Origin: Herbiconiux sp.
GTDB taxonomy: Bacteria; Actinomycetota; Actinomycetes; Actinomycetales; Microbacteriaceae
DNA: 55,144 nt
Direction of reading: 5' to 3'
NCBI RefSeq assembly: GCF_023264855.1
Contig: NZ_JAHFUW010000028.1
Coordinates: forward strand, 1-55,144
Shown: one piece after another, positions 16,941 to 25,206 of the stretch
How positions within the stretch are numbered: position 1 is the first letter of the stretch
Layout: every line of letters starts with the position of its first letter
The notes under the pieces: generated by a model
What the model saw: the letters and a program-made list of their open reading frames with translations, nothing else
The model's database searches: none
What the model was told of the DNA's origin: nothing
Program-made: the position numbers and the translations under genes

Positions 16941-17735
16941 TCAGGCGGCGATGCCGCGCTTGTCGAGCGCGTCCTGCACGATGGTGAGGCCGTCCAGGCC
17001 GGGCATGCGCGCGACGTGGGCGTCGATCTTGGCCGCCTCGCGACGGCCCTCGGGGCCGCCCATCAGCTGGCCCATCACGTGCTTGACCTCGTCGTCGCTC
17101 ATCACACCGGAGCCCACGGGTCCCCAGAAGTTCTTCAGCGCGAAGCGGGCGAGCACCTGCGCCTTCTTGCTCTTGCCGAGCCGCTCCCGGGCCTGGGTGG
17201 CGTAGAACGCCACGTGCCGGGCCTCCTGCTTCGCGATGCGGCGCAGCAGCTCGGCCAGAACCGGGTGCCCCTCCATGTCGGCGAGGCGGTTGTAGGCGGC
17301 CACGGCCGACCACTCGTTCACGGCGCCCCACACCATGTGCACGGCGATGAAGCCCGAGCCCACGATGTTGCCGAGCAGCGACTGCTTCACGGGGTCGAGG
17401 CGGTCTTTCCAGCCGAGCTTCAGGCGCGTCGCCTTGAGCTCGTCGAAGTCGACGATGATGTCGTGCTCGGCCAGCACGGCCGCGAGGGCCTCGCCGTGCC
17501 AGAACTCCTCGCGGTTCCACATCGTCATGAAGGCGGTGACGTCTTCATCCTTGTGCGAGGGGGTCACCAGCATGTCGCGCAGGTAGCAGACCGTGTGGTA
17601 CTCGATGTCGCACATGTAGCGCAGCGAGCGCAACGTGCCCTCGGGCAGCGGGTTCTCCCGGAAGTCGGAGAAGTCCAAGTCCTGCCAGGCGACCTTCGTG
17701 GAGGTCTCGGTGTATTTGTCGATGTCGAATGCCAT
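16941..17735 (-). CDS. Ferritin-like diiron protein (FLP1), candidate oxygenase/desaturase
   Basis: 264 residues, mostly helical, ferritin-like. The four-helix-bundle ligand set is complete: Glu45 (DIEYHT), Glu77-x-x-His80 (EEFWH), Glu141 (NEW) and Glu171-x-x-His174 (EARH). This E/ExxH/E/ExxH pattern builds a carboxylate-bridged diiron site as in acyl-ACP desaturases, aldehyde-deformylating oxygenase and similar O2-activating enzymes. It is the last gene of a leftward operon after the acyl-CoA reductase (10-bp gap). It shares the motif VTPSHKD and overall layout with FLP2 upstream. In the ether-lipid setting it could oxidise or desaturate a lipid chain; action on fatty aldehyde is an alternative. 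The substrate is inference only. Confidence 0.8.
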   Translation of the reverse strand: MAFDIDKYTETSTKVAWQDLDFSDFRENPLPEGTLRSLRYMCDIEYHTVCYLRDMLVTPSHKDEDVTAFMTMWNREEFWHGEALAAVLAEHDIIVDFDELKATRLKLGWKDRLDPVKQSLLGNIVGSGFIAVHMVWGAVNEWSAVAAYNRLADMEGHPVLAELLRRIAKQEARHVAFYATQARERLGKSKKAQVLARFALKNFWGPVGSGVMSDDEVKHVMGQLMGGPEGRREAAKIDAHVARMPGLDGLTIVQDALDKRGIAA

Positions 17736-17745
17736 GGCGTGTCGG

Positions 17746-20133
17746 TCAGCGCGGCTCGTGGCCGGTGGACCGATCTCCTTCCTCGGGTACAGCGGATGCG
17801 ACGGGCGAAGCGGATGCGGGGGACTGCTTGTCGTGCAACAGGCTCAGGTTAGCCGGAAGCACCTGACGATCGGATGAACGACGGGTCCAGTCCTCCACCG
17901 TCCACTTTGTTCGTTGCGCATGCCGATACAGTTCGGTGTCCGGGTTGACCACGGTGGCGTTTCCCAGCAACTGCAGCCACGCGACATCCGCGAGGCTGTC
18001 CCCGTAGCCGTACGACTGGGTGAGGTTCGCGCCGTGCGCGGCCGCGTATTCGCGCAGCCACGCGGCGCGCGCCTCGTCCACCAGCGGGGGAGTCGCGAGG
18101 TAGCCGGTCATCACGCCCTTCGAGGCGTGCATCTCGCCGGCCACGATCTCGTCGAAGTACGGTGCGAAGGGCTCGGCGGCCGAGCTCGTGGCGCCCGTCA
18201 CCAGCACGGTGCGGTGACCCGCCGCGCGGTGCTGGGCCACGCGGTCCAGCGCATCCGGAATCGCCCGGCTGAGCATCGCGGCGCCGAACTGGCCCTTCAC
18301 GAGCTGCTGCAGGTCTTCGACCCGGATGCCCTTGTAGCGGCGCACCAGGGTGCGGATGAACTCGCCGCGATCGCGGTGGTCGGCCCGCAGGTACTTCGGC
18401 ACCGAGAACATCAGCGAGGCGAACTCCTGCGGCCACTGCGCCTTCGGGATGAGCGCGAGGCGCACCCAGAGGTACTGCTCCACGAGGTTCGACTCCACCA
18501 CGGTGCCCTCGAAGTCGAACACGGCCAGCACGTCGCTGCGCACGGGGAGCGCGCGTTTGGCCCGCGCGCGGCCGGCGGGCCGGTTCGCGTAGGCCTTGGT
18601 GAGCCCGGTGATGGAGGGGAAGTGGATGTTCTGGAAGTAGTCGTGCCAGTCGATCTCCACCACGTCGAAACCGCGGTCGGCCTTCAGCTCATCGGGCAGC
18701 GAGGCGTGCAGGGCGCGGGTGTTCTTGTCGTCGAAGATCAGCTCGGTCTGCACGTAGGCGCGGTAGAGCTCGGCGAAGTAGCGCAGTTGGTCGAGGCCGC
18801 GCTGGCGCTGGTGCAGGGTCTGCGTCCAGGTGCGCGTGCGGGTGGTGGAGGGCAGTCGCGCCACCAGCCCGTCGGTGCCCGCGGTGAGGCGCTCCTGCAG
18901 CCGGAGTGTGCGCTCCACCGAGCGGCCGCCGGGGAAGCGCCACGAGGGCACCTGGATGGGGCCGTCGACGTGCGGCATCGGGTTCGTGGTGAAGAACTCT
19001 TTGACGTTCTCGTACATCGTGTGGAACGGCAGCGGGTTGCGCGCGCCGGAGACCACCTGGTAGTAGTTCGGCTCGTCGACCTTCGCCGGGGTGACGGCGG
19101 CGGCGAGGATGGCGTTCACCACGAAGTCGACCGGGATGACGTCGAGGATCGAGTCGGGCACGCCCGGGAACTCGGGCAGCTGACCGCGGCCGTAGGCCAT
19201 GATCAGCGGGTCGGCCACCTTGAAGCCGTCGAGCCAGCCGGGGAACGGATGGCGCAGGGCGCTCTCGATGATCGAGGGGCGCACGATCGACAGGCGGTGC
19301 CCGGCGGTGCCCCAGAGCTCTTCGGCGGCGCGCTCGGCGAACGCTTTGGTGAGCGTGTAGACGTCGGTCCAGCCGAGCGACTCGGCGCGGATGCGGCCGT
19401 AGTCGATGAGGCGCTTGGTGACCCATTCGATGCGGGCGGCCTCGGCATCCTGCGCCACGGCCTGCGGGCCGACCTTGCCGAGCTTGGCGCGGGACTTCGC
19501 GAGCAGCGAGCGCAGCACCTCGGGCTGGCGCGAGGCCATCTCTACGCGGCGTCGGGCGGAGCGGGCGGCGTAGTTCTCGGCACGCCAGTCGATCTCGTGC
19601 GTGAGCGACGCCTCCTGAGAGACGCCCTTGCGCATGCCGCCGACGTACGCGGTGGAGACGTGCACCACGTGCGGGTCGCTGCCGGAGGCGAGCAGCGCGC
19701 CGTAGATGCCGGTGGCGCCGTCGACGTTGGTCTGGAACGCTTCGTCGATCGGCGGGTCGAAGCTCACGGTGGAGGCGCCGTGGATGACCACGTCGATGTC
19801 GCCGGGAAGTTCGCCCGGGTTCGCCAGGTCGCCCTGCACCACGCGGAGGCGCTCGCGGATGACCCGCTCGACCTCCTCGTCGCCCACGCTCTCGCGCCAG
19901 CTGCGGAACACGGGCTTCTTCAGCAGCGTGGTGAGGCGCGATTCGCCGCTGGCGCTGGACTTGGGGCGGATCAGCAGCGAGACCGTGGTGTCGGGATGCG
20001 ACGACAGCAGCCGTTCGAGCACGGCCTGGCCCACGAAGCCGGTGGCGCCCGTGAGCAGCACGTGCGAGGAGCCCAGGGAGTGGCCGGGCATCGCAGTGGG
20101 CGTCTCGGGGTCGGTCGGGGTGGGCTCGGTCAT
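17746..20133 (-). CDS. Fatty acyl-CoA reductase fused to a HAD-IB phosphatase-like domain
   Basis: 795 residues. The N-terminal part (about 20-470) is an extended short-chain dehydrogenase of the alcohol-forming fatty acyl-CoA reductase type: nucleotide loop TGATGFVG (28-35), Ser160 in HVSTAYVGG, Tyr259 and Lys263 in YTLTK, then IVRPSIIESALRHPFPGW as in plant and animal FARs. A FAR_C-like region follows. The C-terminal part (about 530-750) is a HAD-IB domain: Asp540 in VFDFEGT, Thr646, and Asp712/Asp716 in GDSLAD. The second Asp of HAD motif I is Glu542, an unusual change. The ATG at 20133 overlaps the FLP2 stop. The frame continues upstream but only as a shadow of FLP2. The product should be a fatty alcohol; the role of the HAD part is unknown. 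Confidence 0.85.
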   Translation of the reverse strand: MTEPTPTDPETPTAMPGHSLGSSHVLLTGATGFVGQAVLERLLSSHPDTTVSLLIRPKSSASGESRLTTLLKKPVFRSWRESVGDEEVERVIRERLRVVQGDLANPGELPGDIDVVIHGASTVSFDPPIDEAFQTNVDGATGIYGALLASGSDPHVVHVSTAYVGGMRKGVSQEASLTHEIDWRAENYAARSARRRVEMASRQPEVLRSLLAKSRAKLGKVGPQAVAQDAEAARIEWVTKRLIDYGRIRAESLGWTDVYTLTKAFAERAAEELWGTAGHRLSIVRPSIIESALRHPFPGWLDGFKVADPLIMAYGRGQLPEFPGVPDSILDVIPVDFVVNAILAAAVTPAKVDEPNYYQVVSGARNPLPFHTMYENVKEFFTTNPMPHVDGPIQVPSWRFPGGRSVERTLRLQERLTAGTDGLVARLPSTTRTRTWTQTLHQRQRGLDQLRYFAELYRAYVQTELIFDDKNTRALHASLPDELKADRGFDVVEIDWHDYFQNIHFPSITGLTKAYANRPAGRARAKRALPVRSDVLAVFDFEGTVVESNLVEQYLWVRLALIPKAQWPQEFASLMFSVPKYLRADHRDRGEFIRTLVRRYKGIRVEDLQQLVKGQFGAAMLSRAIPDALDRVAQHRAAGHRTVLVTGATSSAAEPFAPYFDEIVAGEMHASKGVMTGYLATPPLVDEARAAWLREYAAAHGANLTQSYGYGDSLADVAWLQLLGNATVVNPDTELYRHAQRTKWTVEDWTRRSSDRQVLPANLSLLHDKQSPASASPVASAVPEEGDRSTGHEPR

Positions 20134-21125
20134 CCGGTCGGGCCGCCTTTCAGGCTGTCGGTCGTCGTGGTCGTCGTGGTCGTAGGGGTCTTGGCGGTCG
20201 TGTTCGAGGGGGAGGTGCTCGTGCTGTGGGGCAAGGCGTTCTTCGCCGTGGCGGCCGCCCGCCCGAGCCACCGGCCGGTCGTGGCCGTGGGGGTCGATCC
20301 ACCGCGCAGGGCCTTCGCCCGTGCGGTGCGCACGAGCCGGAGCTTCTCCAGCCCGGGCAGACCCTGTACCTTCTCGTCGATCCGCACGGCGAGCGCATCG
20401 TCGATGAGTGTTTCGTAGAAGAAGGCCGTTTCGGATTTCGGCAGGCTCGCCGCGCCGATCGGCCACGCGGCCCGCGGCAGGCTCCGGCGGCTGAGCGAGC
20501 GGGCGCGCGGAGAGCTCTCGAGGCGGTTCACCGCGTCGACCTCGACGAACAGCCGGTGCCGCTTCTTCACCTCCTGCACGTGGTCGAGCACGGCGAGCAG
20601 CACCGGATGCGGGTCGATCTCGGCGAGCTTCGTGTAGGCCGACTCGGTGATCCACTCGTCGATGGTGACGGATGCCATGTGCAGGCCGATCACGTCGGGG
20701 CCGATCGAGTTGGCGCGGAACGACTCCACGATCGGGGTGGCGCGCTCGGCCAGCTCCAGCGCGAGGCCGCGGAAGCGCGACAGCGGCAGAGGCTCGGTCA
20801 CGTCGAGGCCGTGCGCGCGGGCGATCGCCTCGAAGGAGTCGGCGATCCAGAACTTCTCGAAGGCCCAGGTGGTGAGGAAGGCGGTGACCCGCGCGTCTTT
20901 GTGGGTGGGCGTCACCAGCACGTTGCGCAGGTAGGTCATGGTGCTGCGCTCGAGCTCGCGCATCGTGGCGAGCACGCGCACGGTGGCCGGCTCCAGCGGC
21001 CGGGCGGCGAAGGCCTCGAGGTCGATCTCCGAGCGGTAGCTGCCCACGGCGGTGCGCGCGAACTCGCGCACGTCGAATCGGTCGGGAACCGAATCTCCGA
21101 CGGATGTGGTGTGCTCTCCGGTCAA
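20130..21125 (-). CDS. Degenerate ferritin-like protein (FLP2), probable pseudoenzyme partner of FLP1
   Basis: 331 residues, aligning with FLP1 over the bundle (for example YLRNVLVTPTHKDARVTAF and DEWITESAYTKLAEI). Glu59, Glu157 and His190 are retained, but the helix-2 ExxH is Lys91-x-x-Ile94 and the last-helix Glu is Lys187, so a diiron site cannot form in the normal way. The lysines could replace the metal with salt bridges. The C-terminal 40 residues are Ser/Thr-rich, including eight consecutive Thr. The start is TTG at 21125, six nt after GGAGGG; no nearby ATG or GTG fits. First gene of the leftward operon. It is likely a structural or regulatory partner of FLP1. Confidence 0.75.
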   Translation of the reverse strand: MTGEHTTSVGDSVPDRFDVREFARTAVGSYRSEIDLEAFAARPLEPATVRVLATMRELERSTMTYLRNVLVTPTHKDARVTAFLTTWAFEKFWIADSFEAIARAHGLDVTEPLPLSRFRGLALELAERATPIVESFRANSIGPDVIGLHMASVTIDEWITESAYTKLAEIDPHPVLLAVLDHVQEVKKRHRLFVEVDAVNRLESSPRARSLSRRSLPRAAWPIGAASLPKSETAFFYETLIDDALAVRIDEKVQGLPGLEKLRLVRTARAKALRGGSTPTATTGRWLGRAAATAKNALPHSTSTSPSNTTAKTPTTTTTTTTDSLKGGPTG

Positions 21126-21182
21126 CGGAATCCCTCCGCGTGGGCGGCGTACATGAGGTGGTGATGGGGCGCGCAGGTCGAT

Positions 21183-21207
21183 CGCTACGCACTCCGTAGC
21201 GTATCGT
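21183..21207. promoter_or_regulatory. Operator palindrome and -10 box of the lipid divergon
   Basis: CGCTACG (21183-21189) and CGTAGCG (21195-21201) form a perfect 7-bp dyad around CACTC. The box TATCGT (21202-21207) directly follows, seven nt before the ATG of the reductase gene. A protein on the dyad would block the spacer of the rightward promoter, and being in the 89-bp shared gap it could affect both operons. No clear -35 is visible. Confidence 0.5.
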
Positions 21208-21214
21208 AAGCATC

Positions 21215-22051
21215 ATGGCGACGGCTCTCGTGACCGGTGGCACATCCGGTATCGGTGCCGCATTCGCTCGTGCACTCTCGTTGCGGGGCTACGACCTCGT
21301 GCTGGTGGCGCGCGACGAATCCCGGCTCCGCAGCATGGCCGACGAACTCGAGCGCGAGGGGGCGACCCGCGTGGAGATCATCTCGGCCGATCTCTCGGTG
21401 CGCGCCGACGTCGACCGGGTCGCGGCGCGGCTCGAGTCGGCCGACGACCCGATCGACTTCCTGGTGAACAACGCCGGCTTCGGCATCCACGGCTCCCTGC
21501 TCGAGCGTGACGTGTCCATCCATGAGCGCGCTCTCGCGGTCATGTGCCTGGCCGTGCTCGTTCTGGGCGGCGCCGCGGGGCGGGCCATGAAGGCGCGGCA
21601 CAAGGGCACCATCCTCAACGTCTCGAGCGTGGCGGGTGCCATCGCCACCGGCAACTATTCGGCGGTCAAGGCCTGGACCACGTCGTACACCGAGGGGCTC
21701 GCGGTCGAGCTGCGCGATTCGAACGTGACGGTCGCGGCCGTGCTGCCGGGCTGGGTGCGCACGGAGTTCCACGAGCGGGCGGGCATCCGCACCAAGTCGA
21801 TCCCCGAGTTCCTCTGGCTCGACGCCGACGCCCTGGTGGAGGAGTGCCTGCGGGACGTCGCCCGCGGCGCGGTGCTGTCGGTGCCGTCCAAGCGCTTCAA
21901 GGTGCTGTTCTTCTTCACGCGACACCTGCCCAGGCGGGTGATCCGCTGGATCTCGGGGCGCATCTCCTCCAGTCGCAACAAACCGGCCGCACCGGCTGCT
22001 CCGAACAACGACGCAGCGGCACCCGCCGCGGGATCGAAGGCGAAGCGATGA
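21215..22051 (+). CDS. Short-chain dehydrogenase/reductase, candidate alkyl/acyl-DHAP reductase
   Basis: 278 residues, classical SDR. Cofactor loop TGGTSGIG (7-14), NNAG (85-88), catalytic Ser137/138 in NVSSVAG, Tyr148 and Lys152 in YSAVK. A cationic C-terminal extension with an FFFTRHLPRRVIRW segment could associate with membrane. Animal ether lipid synthesis uses an SDR (DHRS7B/PexRAP) to reduce acyl- or alkyl-DHAP, and the neighbours (PlsC, AGPS-like) make that the best guess here. The motifs alone cannot tell it from other lipid SDRs. The ATG is seven nt after TATCGT, so the mRNA is probably leaderless. The stop overlaps plsC (ATGA). Confidence 0.85.
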   Translation: MATALVTGGTSGIGAAFARALSLRGYDLVLVARDESRLRSMADELEREGATRVEIISADLSVRADVDRVAARLESADDPIDFLVNNAGFGIHGSLLERDVSIHERALAVMCLAVLVLGGAAGRAMKARHKGTILNVSSVAGAIATGNYSAVKAWTTSYTEGLAVELRDSNVTVAAVLPGWVRTEFHERAGIRTKSIPEFLWLDADALVEECLRDVARGAVLSVPSKRFKVLFFFTRHLPRRVIRWISGRISSSRNKPAAPAAPNNDAAAPAAGSKAKR

Positions 22052-22833
22052 CCGACAAGCATCCGCACCTGATCAGGGCCCCGAAAGACCGCTTCACCTC
22101 CGGCGTGATGGCGGGCATGCGCTTCGTGGCGCAGCGGATGGTGCTGAAGCCCGTCGTCTGGTCGATCACGCGGGTGAGCGTTCGCGGCCACGACGCGGTC
22201 AAGGGCGTGCACGGCGCGTTCATCGCCGTGGCGAACCACTCCAGCCACCTGGACGCCCCGCTGATCATGTGCGCGCTGCCGCGCCGGCTCGGCCGGTACC
22301 TGGCCGCCGGGGCCGCCGCCGACTACTTCTTCGACATCTGGTGGCGGCGCATCCTCACCTCCCTGTTCTTCAACGCCTTCCCGATCGACCGCACCGGCAC
22401 CGCCGAGAAGCGCGGCGTGTCGAAGAAGCTGCTCGCCCGGGGTGTGCCGCTGCTGGTGTTCCCCGAGGGAACCCGCTCGAAGACCGGCGAGATGGCCGAC
22501 TTCAAGGCCGGGGCCGCCGCCCTGTCGATGGCCTGCGACGTGCCCTGCGTGCCGGTTGCGATCGTGGGGGCATCGCTCGCCATGCCGCGCGGCCGCAACT
22601 GGCCGCTTCCCGGCCGCCCGCCGGTCGCCGTCGTCTTCGGCGCCCCCATGCTCGGCCTGCCCGGCGAGACCGCTGATGAGTTCTCGGCCCGCATCGCCAA
22701 GGAGGTGCGCCGCCTGCACTCCACCGGATCGGGCACCGCGGCGATCCCTGCGCTGCCCACGCACGCACGCACCAGTGACTTCACCACCTACACCCGCACC
22801 GACAGCTCGAACTCCGCGAAGGGAGCCGCATGA
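22048..22833 (+). CDS. PlsC-type 1-acyl-glycerol-phosphate acyltransferase family protein
   Basis: 261 residues. The acyltransferase block I NHSSHLD (63-69) has the His-x4-Asp catalytic pair, block III is FPEGTRS (138-144), and block IV is VPVAIVGAS. It transfers an acyl chain from acyl-CoA or acyl-ACP to a glycerol-3-phosphate derivative at the membrane. The gene is coupled by ATGA overlaps on both sides to the SDR and to the AGPS-like gene, so in this locus it could acylate DHAP at the start of the pathway or 1-alkyl-glycerol-3-phosphate at its end. One PlsC cannot obviously do both. The last 35 residues are low-complexity. Confidence 0.9.
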   Translation: MTDKHPHLIRAPKDRFTSGVMAGMRFVAQRMVLKPVVWSITRVSVRGHDAVKGVHGAFIAVANHSSHLDAPLIMCALPRRLGRYLAAGAAADYFFDIWWRRILTSLFFNAFPIDRTGTAEKRGVSKKLLARGVPLLVFPEGTRSKTGEMADFKAGAAALSMACDVPCVPVAIVGASLAMPRGRNWPLPGRPPVAVVFGAPMLGLPGETADEFSARIAKEVRRLHSTGSGTAAIPALPTHARTSDFTTYTRTDSSNSAKGAA

Positions 22834-24563
22834 CCGACGTCAAGCACATGAAGTGGTGGGGCTGGGGCGTCGAGGGCGTCGGCTTCCACTTCGAGGACAA
22901 GCCCGAGTTCGTTCCCTTCGTGCAGAAGGCCGTGGCACTGGACGTCCGCACCCCTCCCGTGCCGCCGCTGTCGTTCGACGAGCTGACGATCGCACCGTCG
23001 CGCATCTCGCCGTCGTTCGAGGCCGAACTCGTCTCCATCGTCGGCGAGGAGAACGCGCACACCTCCGACGAGCTGCGCGTCATCCACACCTACGGCAAGT
23101 CCATCCGCGACCTGCTGCGCATCCGCCGCAACGAGATCGCCCGGGTTCCCGACATCGTGGTCTACCCGGCCGACGAGTGGGACGTGCAGCAGATCGTCGA
23201 CGCCGCCGTCGCCGAGGGCGCCGTCATCATCCCCTTCGGCGGGGGCAGCAACATCGCCGGCTCGCTCGAGCCGCTGCCCGACGAGCAGCGCACCATCGTG
23301 TCGCTCGATCTCGGCCGCCTCGACCGCGTGCTCGACATCGACGAAGGATCGGGCCTCGCCCGCATCCAGGCCGGTGCGCAGGGCCCCTCGATCGAGGAGC
23401 AGCTGGGCGCCAAGGGCTGGACGATGGGGCACTTCCCCGACTCCTTCACGCACTCCACGGTCGGTGGCTGGGTCGCCACCCGCTCCTCGGGCATGCAGTC
23501 CGACAAGTACGGCGACATCGCCGACATCTGCCGGGGACTGCGGATGGTGCGGCCGGGCGAGATCGTCGAACTCCGTCCCCTGCCCTCTACCTCCACCGGG
23601 CCATCCGTTCGCGAGATGATCATCGGCTCGGAGGGGCGTCTCGGCGTCATCACCGAGGTCACCGTACAGGTGCACCGCACGCCAGCCGTGCGGGAGGTGC
23701 AGGCGTACTTCTTCCCGAACTGGGAGGCGGGCCTCGCTGCGATGCACGAGATCTCGGAGTCCGACGCCTCGCCGTCGATCACCCGGGTGTCGGATGCGCG
23801 CGAGAGCGGCTTCTCGCTGGCCACGCGCAAGGCGTCCAAGGGCGTCTCCGGGGCCGCGCAGAGCGTGCTGATGTCGGTGCTGAAGCGTCGCGGCTGGGTA
23901 CTGGAGGACATGTGCCTCTCGTTCATCGGCTTCGAGGGCTCGGCCTCGCACGTCGCCTACGAGAAGAAGCTCGTGGGTGCGATCGTGAAGAAGCACGGCG
24001 GTCTCGGCGTAGGTAAGGGTCCGGGCGCCCTCTACGACCAGAAGAAGTTCGACACGCCCTACCTGCGCGACTTCCTGCTCGATCGGGGAGCGGCGGCCGA
24101 CGTGTCGGAGACGGCCGCGCCGTGGTCGCGCCTGCAGGAGGTCTACGACGCCACGCGTGCCGCAGCGGACCGCGCCTACGAGGCGCTGGGCGTGCACGGC
24201 TGGATCATGTGCCACCTCTCGCACTCGTACCACTCGGGTGCCTGCCTGTACTTCACGTTCGCGTTCGTGCACGGCGACGACCCGATCGCGCAGTACGAGG
24301 TGGTGAAGTTCAGCATCCAGCAGGCGTTCCAGGATGCCGGCGGCACGCTCTCGCACCACCACGGCGTCGGCGTCGAGCACTCCCCGTGGATGGAGCAGGA
24401 CATCTCGCCGGCCGGCGTCGCCCTCATGCAGGGCCTCTTCGACTCGGCCGACCCGAAGCACCTCTTCAACCCCGGCAAGGTCCTGGGCCCCCAGGTCACC
24501 GCGGCCGACGTAGCGTCCCTCGTGGAGAAGGCCCCCCGCGCCGCCAAAGTCCCCGCGACCTAA
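22830..24563 (+). CDS. FAD-binding oxidase, alkyl-DHAP synthase (AGPS) homologue
   Basis: 577 residues of the vanillyl-alcohol-oxidase flavoprotein family. AGPS-specific features are visible: MKWWGWG at the N-terminus, the FAD loop PFGGGSNIAGS (135-145), PDSFTHSTVGGWVATRSSGM (203-222) ahead of DKYGDI, HSYHSGACLYF (465-475) and SLSHHHGVG-like TLSHHHGVG (506-514). AGPS swaps the acyl chain of acyl-DHAP for a fatty alcohol, making the ether bond. The fatty alcohol can come from the FAR encoded in the divergent operon. Similar flavoproteins can be lactate or glycolate oxidases, but those lack the KWWGWG and SHHHGVG contexts. Last gene of the rightward operon, ended by a 19-bp hairpin. Confidence 0.87.
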   Translation: MTDVKHMKWWGWGVEGVGFHFEDKPEFVPFVQKAVALDVRTPPVPPLSFDELTIAPSRISPSFEAELVSIVGEENAHTSDELRVIHTYGKSIRDLLRIRRNEIARVPDIVVYPADEWDVQQIVDAAVAEGAVIIPFGGGSNIAGSLEPLPDEQRTIVSLDLGRLDRVLDIDEGSGLARIQAGAQGPSIEEQLGAKGWTMGHFPDSFTHSTVGGWVATRSSGMQSDKYGDIADICRGLRMVRPGEIVELRPLPSTSTGPSVREMIIGSEGRLGVITEVTVQVHRTPAVREVQAYFFPNWEAGLAAMHEISESDASPSITRVSDARESGFSLATRKASKGVSGAAQSVLMSVLKRRGWVLEDMCLSFIGFEGSASHVAYEKKLVGAIVKKHGGLGVGKGPGALYDQKKFDTPYLRDFLLDRGAAADVSETAAPWSRLQEVYDATRAAADRAYEALGVHGWIMCHLSHSYHSGACLYFTFAFVHGDDPIAQYEVVKFSIQQAFQDAGGTLSHHHGVGVEHSPWMEQDISPAGVALMQGLFDSADPKHLFNPGKVLGPQVTAADVASLVEKAPRAAKVPAT

Positions 24564-24636: not shown

Positions 24637-25206
24637 TCAGGGGTGCTCGGGTGGGGTGAGGGCCGGCCAGAGCAGGGTGAGTAGGCGATCGGCCCACTCC
24701 TCGTCGGGCTCGCCGCCTCGGATGACGTGACCGACGGCCGAGCCCAGGAGCACACTCACGACGAGCTTCACGTCCAGGCCCGCACGGAGGTCGCCGCGGG
24801 CGACCGCCTCGTCGAGGAAGGCGACCAGCTGGTGGCTGCGCATCCGGATCATGTCGCGCAACTGTTCGGCGAACGGACCGCCGTCGTCGATCAGGATGGC
24901 GGCGACCGTGCCGCGGCCGACGATGTCCTGCACGCGGATGCGCGCGGCGCCGAGCAGCCAGTGCAGGGTGTCGTAGGTCGACATGCCGCTGGGCAGCGTG
25001 ACCTCGGTGGTGGCCACGTCGATGGCCGCGCCCAGAAGCGCTTCGCGGTCTTCGTAGCGGCGATAGATGGTGGTCTTGGCGACTCCGGATGCCGTGGCCA
25101 CGGCCTCCACGTTCACCGCGTTCGGCCCCTTGTCGCGCAGGATCTGCAGCGTGGCCGCGACGATGCGCGCGTCGGCGCCGACCTGGGAGTGGTCGCCGTC
25201 GCTCAT
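24637..25206 (-). CDS. TetR family transcriptional regulator
   Basis: 189 residues. Helix-turn-helix in residues 14-60 (RIVAATLQILRDKGPNAVNVEAVATASGVAKTTIYRRYEDREALL), followed by a TetR_C ligand domain with GRGTVAAILIDDGGPFAEQL. TACAAT lies six nt before the ATG, a near-consensus -10 box, so translation is leaderless. It converges on the AGPS-like gene and could regulate the lipid divergon, but I find no copy of the divergon palindrome in its own promoter, so the target is open. Confidence 0.9.
   Translation of the reverse strand: MSDGDHSQVGADARIVAATLQILRDKGPNAVNVEAVATASGVAKTTIYRRYEDREALLGAAIDVATTEVTLPSGMSTYDTLHWLLGAARIRVQDIVGRGTVAAILIDDGGPFAEQLRDMIRMRSHQLVAFLDEAVARGDLRAGLDVKLVVSVLLGSAVGHVIRGGEPDEEWADRLLTLLWPALTPPEHP

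Follow-up and report, generated by a model that had tools for sequence, protein, structure and literature searches.

A divergent six-gene locus of aerobic actinobacteria predicted to make ether phospholipids, with a ferritin-like pair as candidate vinyl-ether desaturase

In a 55,144-nt stretch of DNA from the soil actinobacterium Herbiconiux sp. (contig NZ_JAHFUW010000028.1 of assembly GCF_023264855.1; the whole stretch is called the window below), we found six genes, arranged as two divergent three-gene operons within positions 16941-24563, that very probably make 1-O-alkyl phospholipids. We are inclined, by a small degree, to the fuller reading in which ether phospholipids, probably plasmalogens, are made here by the route known from animals, via dihydroxyacetone phosphate (DHAP). 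With a similarly slight preference, we take two soluble ferritin-like proteins (FLPs) of the locus to be an O2-dependent vinyl-ether (plasmanyl) desaturase. The observations behind these readings are the identities of the genes, their conserved residues, the conservation of the block and its occurrence in a strain for which dimethylacetals have been published, all of them read from sequence.

We name the two ferritin-like proteins FLP-cat (encoded at 16941-17735) and FLP-deg (encoded at 20130-21125). Two divergent operons of six genes were what the original prediction had described, and each gene was confirmed at its position:

16941..17735, minus strand: FLP-cat, soluble ferritin-like diiron protein, probable oxidase/desaturase, 264 aa
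17746..20133, minus strand: FAR-HAD, fatty acyl-CoA reductase (FAR) fused to a HAD-IB domain, ATG at 20133, 795 aa
20130..21125, minus strand: FLP-deg, FLP-cat paralogue without the metal ligands, probable partner subunit, TTG start, 331 aa
21126..21214: divergent intergenic gap, presumed shared promoter region (from the coordinates alone), 89 bp if the TTG start holds
21215..22051, plus strand: short-chain dehydrogenase/reductase (SDR), presumed acyl/alkyl-DHAP reductase, 278 aa
22048..22833, plus strand: PlsC-type acyltransferase, 261 aa
22830..24563, plus strand: AGPS, alkyl-DHAP (alkylglycerone-phosphate) synthase homologue, 577 aa

Three gene pairs overlap by 4 bp (FLP-deg/FAR, SDR/PlsC and PlsC/AGPS). 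The shared gap of 89 bp claimed earlier was found at 21126-21214, provided that the TTG start of FLP-deg is correct.

The best solved relative of the AGPS gene product was the Dictyostelium enzyme ADPS (2uuu, 388 bits), and mammalian AGPS (4bby) scored 295 bits, compared to 86 bits at most for lactate and glycolate enzymes (D-lactate dehydrogenase). The original prediction of an aerobic ether-lipid pathway had been made to depend on this very comparison; the flavoprotein proved closer to AGPS than to glycolate/lactate oxidases, an identity of the latter kind was ruled out, and the predicted pathway gained support. Pfam domains FAD_binding_4 (111 bits) and FAD-oxidase_C (138.7 bits) were detected, as were the strings SHHHGVG and KWWGWG pointed out earlier. 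Residues R319, R413, Y474 and H509-511 align with R419, R515, Y578 and H615-617 of guinea-pig AGPS, which we take to be its active-site residues, and at each of these positions no more than one of the 79-80 rows having a residue there deviates. Judged by sequence, the protein is a bona fide alkyl-DHAP synthase homologue.

The three other enzymes matched their expected families. FAR-HAD has matches to NAD_binding_4 (PF07993, 166.5 bits, E 8.1e-49) and HAD (PF12710, 101.8 bits, E 8.5e-29), while the C-terminal 'Sterile' domain of such reductases (PF03015) scored 32.0 bits against a cut-off of 35.4. It keeps the motifs TGxxGxxG and YxxxK as well as the HAD nucleophile D540 and GDxxxD. We also observed that HAD motif I (residues 540-544) reads D-x-E-G-T, with the second Asp replaced by Glu in 78 of 82 rows. 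The SDR (adh_short, PF00106, 135.3 bits, E 2.4e-39) has conserved TGxxxGIG, NNAG and YxxxK motifs. In PlsC (Acyltransferase, PF01553, 80.9 bits, E 9.2e-23), HxxxxD and FPEGxR are identical across 43 rows.

The original prediction named one diiron protein, 'FLP1', as candidate desaturase, without tying it to either gene. The two ferritin-like proteins are not equivalent, and a diiron ligand set is kept in FLP-cat only. The alignment comprised 81 FLP-cat and 62 FLP-deg sequences, including those of the window (seven FLP-deg rows with a stop in the extended reading were left out). In FLP-cat, the residues E45, E77, H80, E141, E171 and H174, a complete E/ExxH/E/ExxH diiron set, are present in 81 of 81 sequences. 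At the corresponding sites FLP-deg retains only the first Glu throughout (62 of 62). The E77 site is Lys in all 62 sequences, the H80 site is Ile, Leu, Met or Val and never His, and the E141 site is Glu in 47, Asp in 8 and another residue in 7. At the E171 site we found Lys (54) or Arg (8), and at the H174 site His (45) or Gln (17). With these ligands lost, FLP-deg as a catalyst was ruled out (62 of 62), which leaves FLP-cat as the one member of the pair that could be a diiron enzyme. FLP-deg looks like a dead partner subunit.

The two proteins share 32% identity. In two Herbiconiux loci, the identity to the window was 94-95% for FLP-cat and 67% for FLP-deg, FLP-cat thus being the slower-evolving one. 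A single FLP was observed in 12 of 12 genomes of another set (seven Jiangella, Actinopolymorpha, Haloactinopolyspora, the genomes G063 and G097, and one metagenome-assembled genome, MAG); therefore, the pair looks derived.

Above the Pfam cut-offs FLP-cat matches only Rubrerythrin, over a short part of its length (23.5 bits, cut-off 22.8), FLP-deg has no Pfam match, and an FLP profile found nothing significant among the sequences of solved structures. Neither protein matched PF10520, the family of CarF/PEDS1/TMEM189, in an hmmscan with E up to 1. The fold predicted for FLP-cat belongs to the desaturase/R2 type along almost all of the chain, and its ten top structural neighbours are all soluble acyl-ACP (acyl carrier protein) desaturases, at 12-19% identity in the structural alignments. 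The FLP-deg model has a pLDDT of 84.9 with a low-confidence C-terminal tail.

Conservation of the block was assessed in a profile search of genome contigs with the FLP-cat alignment, in which the best 80 of 288 relatives were analysed. These 80 named loci were retrieved by the FLP-cat family alone, and their FLP-cat proteins are 70-97% identical to that of the window. All six genes lie within the retrieved stretch in 60 of the 80, which makes the grouping one beyond chance. The layout is nearly constant among the 60; locus L094 is rearranged and L128 lies in broken pieces. The names under which the block was seen include Herbiconiux, Subtercola, Salinibacterium, Rhodoglobus, Lacisediminihabitans, Labedella, Glaciihabitans, Plantibacter, Protaetiibacter, Homoserinibacter, Arenivirga and Phytoactinopolyspora, and all eight Subtercola-labelled loci among the best 80 have the six genes. 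As to the other 20 loci, L066, L085 and L121 are split or cut by contig ends, L124 has FAR and PlsC without AGPS, and 16 have neither FAR nor AGPS in the stretch. Seven Jiangella and Naasia have AGPS elsewhere in the genome.

That the window's genome is a Herbiconiux was borne out by the FLP-cat of Herbiconiux gentiana, which is 97% identical to the window's, and by genome G011, of the same genus as the window, in which 15 kb are the same as in a locus labelled Herbiconiux. Some record names are doubtful: the FLP-cat of L066 ('Corynebacterium-like bacterium B27') resembles those of Herbiconiux, and the FLP-cat of L141, a MAG contig labelled 'Acidobacteria', groups among Microbacteriaceae. A search of plasmids with FLP-cat gave one record, Streptomyces sp. 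NBC_01450 NZ_CP109481.1 (about 1074753-1082732; L215). This 2.35-Mb plasmid record carries all six genes, a sign of horizontal transfer.

Co-occurrence was counted in two samples, 99 relatives (74 genera) and 296 Actinomycetes (115 genera). A protein was called an AGPS orthologue at an identity of at least 49%; class-wide AGPS-like proteins of up to 41% identity were excluded. Among the 74 genera, 16 had FLP and AGPS, three FLP only, two AGPS only and 53 neither (the weak-FLP genus g45 was excluded), which gives an association with P of 2e-11, kinship ignored. In the 296 Actinomycetes we found FLP homologues in 35 genomes, FAR-HAD in 65 and AGPS in 35. FAR accompanied FLP in 30 of 35 cases and AGPS in 31 of 35. 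The Fisher P values were 4e-18 for FLP-FAR, 4e-14 for FLP-AGPS and 1e-19 for AGPS-FAR, again with kinship ignored; pooled by genus (115), they were 4e-7, 4e-5 and 3e-7, respectively. The ether core and the FLP pair occupy separate loci in G070, the FLP pair of Naasia lies apart from AGPS and FAR, and G087 has the ether core with no FLP match. Such separability is expected of a core pathway with an optional late step.

The dimethylacetals of Subtercola and Agreia, mentioned in the original prediction, are in print. For Subtercola vilae DB165, i-16:0, a-15:0 and a-17:0 dimethylacetals (DMAs) are given as 17.0%, 3.2% and 1.9%, about 22% in total; the sums for three further Subtercola are about 21-29%, those for Agreia at most 4%, and Frondihabitans is reported without (passages of PMC5945732). 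The latter negative is a soft one, since C14:0 2-OH is named among the major acids of Frondihabitans. Anteiso-15:0 aldehyde/DMA is listed for Frigoribacterium faeni and F. adelgis and not for two other species in a passage of PMC12823222. For Kineococcus rubinsiae, a passage of PMC7472656 states that the MIDI peak 'C14:0 2OH' was anteiso-C15:0 dimethylacetal by gas chromatography-mass spectrometry, and plasmalogens were suggested. A passage of PMC10713820 names no dimethylacetal for one Salinibacterium and one Agromyces strain. Our comparison of published lipids with genomes covered Subtercola among the genera named in the original prediction. The genome of S. vilae DB165 (L096/G116) has all six genes.

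The HGD-D domain (PF06050), presumably a domain of the anaerobic enzyme PlsA, was searched for as a marker of the other route. There was no match in the window's genome, S. vilae DB165, S. lobariae and three S. boreus-labelled genomes, with positive controls in E. coli and M. jannaschii. The anaerobic PlsA route was thus rejected for the dimethylacetals of these Subtercola; it is a possible one in two other Subtercola genomes, G022 and RYN_59. Genome G022, placed in Subtercola because 12.5 kb of its DNA are 88.9% identical to that genus, gave no PF10520 match in a search that had no positive control. CarF is limited to myxobacteria, a few Leptospira and Alphaproteobacteria according to a passage of PMC9131029. 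In the openly licensed literature (titles and starts of abstracts, with few subscription taxonomy journals), we found neither a ferritin-like plasmalogen desaturase nor this block.

The pathway that we propose is drawn by inference as to each enzymatic step, the order of steps, the heterodimer and the position of desaturation. FAR-HAD would reduce acyl-CoA or acyl-ACP to a long-chain alcohol, and DHAP would be acylated by the PlsC of the block or by another acyltransferase. AGPS would exchange the acyl chain of acyl-DHAP for the alcohol, yielding alkyl-DHAP, which the SDR would reduce to 1-O-alkyl-glycerol-3-phosphate; sn-2 acylation by PlsC would follow. FLP-cat, with O2, would take two hydrogens off C1'-C2' of the alkyl chain, leaving a vinyl ether, the group that would give dimethylacetals on acid methanolysis. 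The catalytically dead FLP-deg would most likely form a heterodimer with FLP-cat and aid substrate handling or docking. The FLP pair was chosen for the last step because, among the genes with no part in the known alkyl-ether steps, FLP-cat alone has a cofactor site suited to an O2-dependent desaturation.

FAR-HAD also has a second set of partners. In 20 FAR loci, chosen by hand from the 65 FAR-positive genomes, the order FAR, zinc alcohol dehydrogenase (ADH), LarA homologue (LarAH) was found in 18, with PlsC next in 15 of the 18; the three loci without the next PlsC are at contig ends. The stretches noted in this connection are:

L216-L229, L242-L245 and L189-L191, Actinomycetes: loci noted for the order FAR-ADH-LarAH, usually with PlsC
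L096:7564-9662, Subtercola vilae: noted with them, from a genus in which LarAH and a PlsC are inserted in the ether block

LarC is near the FAR-LarAH genes in Haloactinopolyspora and in a MAG, and LarE in Haloactinopolyspora. The Subtercola LarA homologue scored 512 bits against NCBIfam LarAH14/15/16, under the cut-off of 740. We know of no precedent for an enzyme of the nickel-pincer type in lipid synthesis.

A number of observations weigh against a plasmalogen-making block with the FLP pair as its desaturase, several of them from gene content. In the class sample, FLP follows FAR better than it follows AGPS, with which it occurs in 21 of 35 genomes; among the 35 FLP matches, nine stand clearly farther off (E 1e-111 or weaker), all of them in genomes lacking an AGPS orthologue, and once they are removed the proportion is 21 of 26 (hand count). 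A strict FLP-AGPS tie was ruled out by the genomes with FLP and no AGPS orthologue. Three Agromyces, two Leifsonia and G039 keep the FLP pair while lacking both FAR and an AGPS orthologue, and their FLP-cat proteins form one clade (support 100/99) nested among block-bearing genomes in the FLP tree. Accordingly, an unrelated subfamily was ruled out as the origin of this clade. These genomes are a real argument against a function that depends on this AGPS, unless their lineage lost the pathway and reused the pair. The pair-only loci are L112, L119, L131, L136, L139 and L041. FLP-cat and FAR without an AGPS orthologue were found in G063, G097, Actinopolymorpha alba, Haloactinopolyspora alba and MAG DX1.bin79; Actinopolymorpha has an AGPS-like protein of 36% identity. 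Conversely, AGPS orthologues without FLP occur in four relatives (G084, G073, G090 and G087) and in 14 of 35 cases in the class sample, 12 of the 14 from one genus.

The lipid tables and enzyme searches add to these points. When the same Subtercola species were re-analysed by MIDI, the table gave 2OH-C14:0 but named no dimethylacetal. C18:1 (summed feature 8) made up 11.8-76.7% of the acids in four of the five strains and 0.8% in S. vilae (passages of PMC9287328). These C18:1 values differ from those of PMC5945732 and would equally fit an ordinary chain desaturase. Misnaming of a-15:0 DMA as 2OH-C14:0 by MIDI may explain the lack of dimethylacetals in that study. The MIDI 2OH-C14:0 and published a-15:0 DMA values agree for S. 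boreus (10.4/11.0) and S. frigoramans (9.9/10.3) and disagree for S. vilae (15.6/3.2) and S. lobariae (3.9/9.7). Glaciihabitans tibetensis, the locus of which (L104) carries the block, is listed in a passage of PMC7033078 with no dimethylacetal, but with 4.2% C14:0 2-OH. CarF/PEDS1 (PF10520) was found in 0 of 99 relatives and 0 of 296 class members in a search where the control genomes were also silent, so that there was no positive control. HGD-D was present in 2 of 22 genomes, both Subtercola (G022 and RYN_59), each with an adjacent pair of HGD-D genes. FLP-cat scored 21.2 bits against FA_desaturase_2 (PF03405), under the cut-off of 22.7, and is thus not assigned to that family. Finally, in Subtercola and Labedella, LarAH and a second PlsC are inserted between FAR and FLP-cat in the AGPS block, and because of these two genes the Subtercola dimethylacetals are not assignable to FLP.

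Could the block make alkyl ethers only, with FLP-cat and FLP-deg desaturating or hydroxylating chains elsewhere and other genes behind the Subtercola dimethylacetals? The resemblance of FLP-cat to acyl-ACP desaturases, the clade with FLP pairs and no AGPS, and the high C18:1 values all fit this explanation, as does anteiso-C15:1 A, listed at 2.7% for Lacisediminihabitans profunda and 1.5% for G. tibetensis in a passage of PMC7033078. We nevertheless consider it unlikely, given that the linkage of FLP is to ether-lipid genes, that the other published passages on these genera show mostly saturated branched chains (C18:1 being 0.8% in S. vilae), and that no HGD-D gene was found to supply the presumed vinyl ether of S. 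vilae, nor any CarF in the search that had no positive control. Still less probable, in our estimate, is that the Subtercola dimethylacetals come from LarAH and the second PlsC, in a pathway of the FAR/ADH/LarAH/PlsC type, rather than from AGPS and FLP. The position of the two inserted genes in Subtercola and Labedella and the gene order seen in 18 of 20 FAR loci would suit such a pathway, and LarAH and PlsC accompany FAR in each of the five genomes that have FLP-cat and FAR but lack an AGPS orthologue. On the other hand, F. faeni and F. adelgis are reported with the anteiso-15:0 aldehyde/DMA noted above, and in the Frigoribacterium-labelled loci L107 and L113 (MAGs, from other strains) the block is a plain one, too tight for a LarAH gene between FAR and FLP-cat. 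LarAH is not known to us to have any link to ether bonds.

It is very improbable that the fatty aldehyde or alcohol from FAR is oxidised by FLP-cat in the manner of an aldehyde-deformylating oxygenase or an R2lox-type oxidase, with the dimethylacetals reflecting aldehydes. Least credible to us is a stress or iron-handling role, with the ferritin-like pair merely carried in the operon and without lipid chemistry. The short Rubrerythrin stretch, being the only Pfam match above cut-off, would agree with it; the desaturase/R2-type fold predicted for nearly the whole chain and the retention of a ligand-less paralogue alongside FLP-cat in the block do not.

Downstream of AGPS lies a gene that may act on the block:

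24637..25206, minus strand: TetR-family regulator (PF00440 and PF16859), convergent with AGPS, possible local regulator, membership in the system unsure

TetR homologues were found in 32 of the 106 loci examined, in 22 of those 32 within 1 kb of AGPS.

The locus can be compared to several known systems. The animal peroxisomal ether-lipid pathway (FAR1, AGPS, acyl/alkyl-DHAP reductase and acyltransferases) uses the same enzyme types, here gathered in one locus, and the AGPS active site is conserved; here, however, we see a divergent bacterial operon, a HAD domain on FAR and two soluble ferritin-like proteins replacing the membrane protein PEDS1. Myxococcus xanthus (CarF/PEDS1, AGPS and ElbD) is likewise an aerobic bacterium with a proposed vinyl ether (passage in PMC9131029). 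Here, the candidate desaturase is a soluble diiron protein, and no CarF match was found in 99 and 296 genomes, in the search without a positive control. The anaerobic PlsA/PlsR (reductase) route is expected to give the same end product, whereas HGD-D is found neither in the window's genome nor in S. vilae DB165 and is present in 2 of 22 genomes. Unlike the soluble acyl-ACP desaturases (castor stearoyl-ACP desaturase, DesA2), to which it is 12-19% identical, FLP-cat is below the PF03405 cut-off and has a ligand-less paralogue beside it. A dead ferritin-like paralogue beside a live one is found in yeast ribonucleotide reductase (Rnr4) and in methane monooxygenase (beta subunit); these are different enzymes, and the heterodimer here is putative.

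We place the putative desaturase FLP-cat/FLP-deg within aerobic plasmalogen synthesis, outside the CarF/PEDS1 family. In a passage of PMC9131029, plasmalogens in aerobic bacteria are termed exceptional to myxobacteria. Yet Subtercola, Agreia, Frigoribacterium and Kineococcus have dimethylacetals in print, and the source passages name no gene for them. The block offers a concrete gene set, and with it a candidate enzyme that is soluble, where the desaturase known to carry out this reaction in aerobes is a membrane protein. For chemotaxonomy, the MIDI misnaming described for K. rubinsiae (passage in PMC7472656) means that plasmalogens may have been missed in other aerobic actinobacteria as well. 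The MIDI 'C14:0 2-OH' of aerobic actinobacteria may be misnamed anteiso-15:0 dimethylacetal, and published tables may hide plasmalogens. We give an even chance to a third, independently evolved route to plasmalogens in aerobic actinobacteria, those for which our searches gave neither the anaerobic reductase route nor CarF/PEDS1 (the latter without a positive control). In it the vinyl ether would be formed by FLP-cat, a soluble diiron enzyme resembling acyl-ACP desaturases, together with its metal-less paralogue. If true, this route would account for the dimethylacetals of aerobic Microbacteriaceae.

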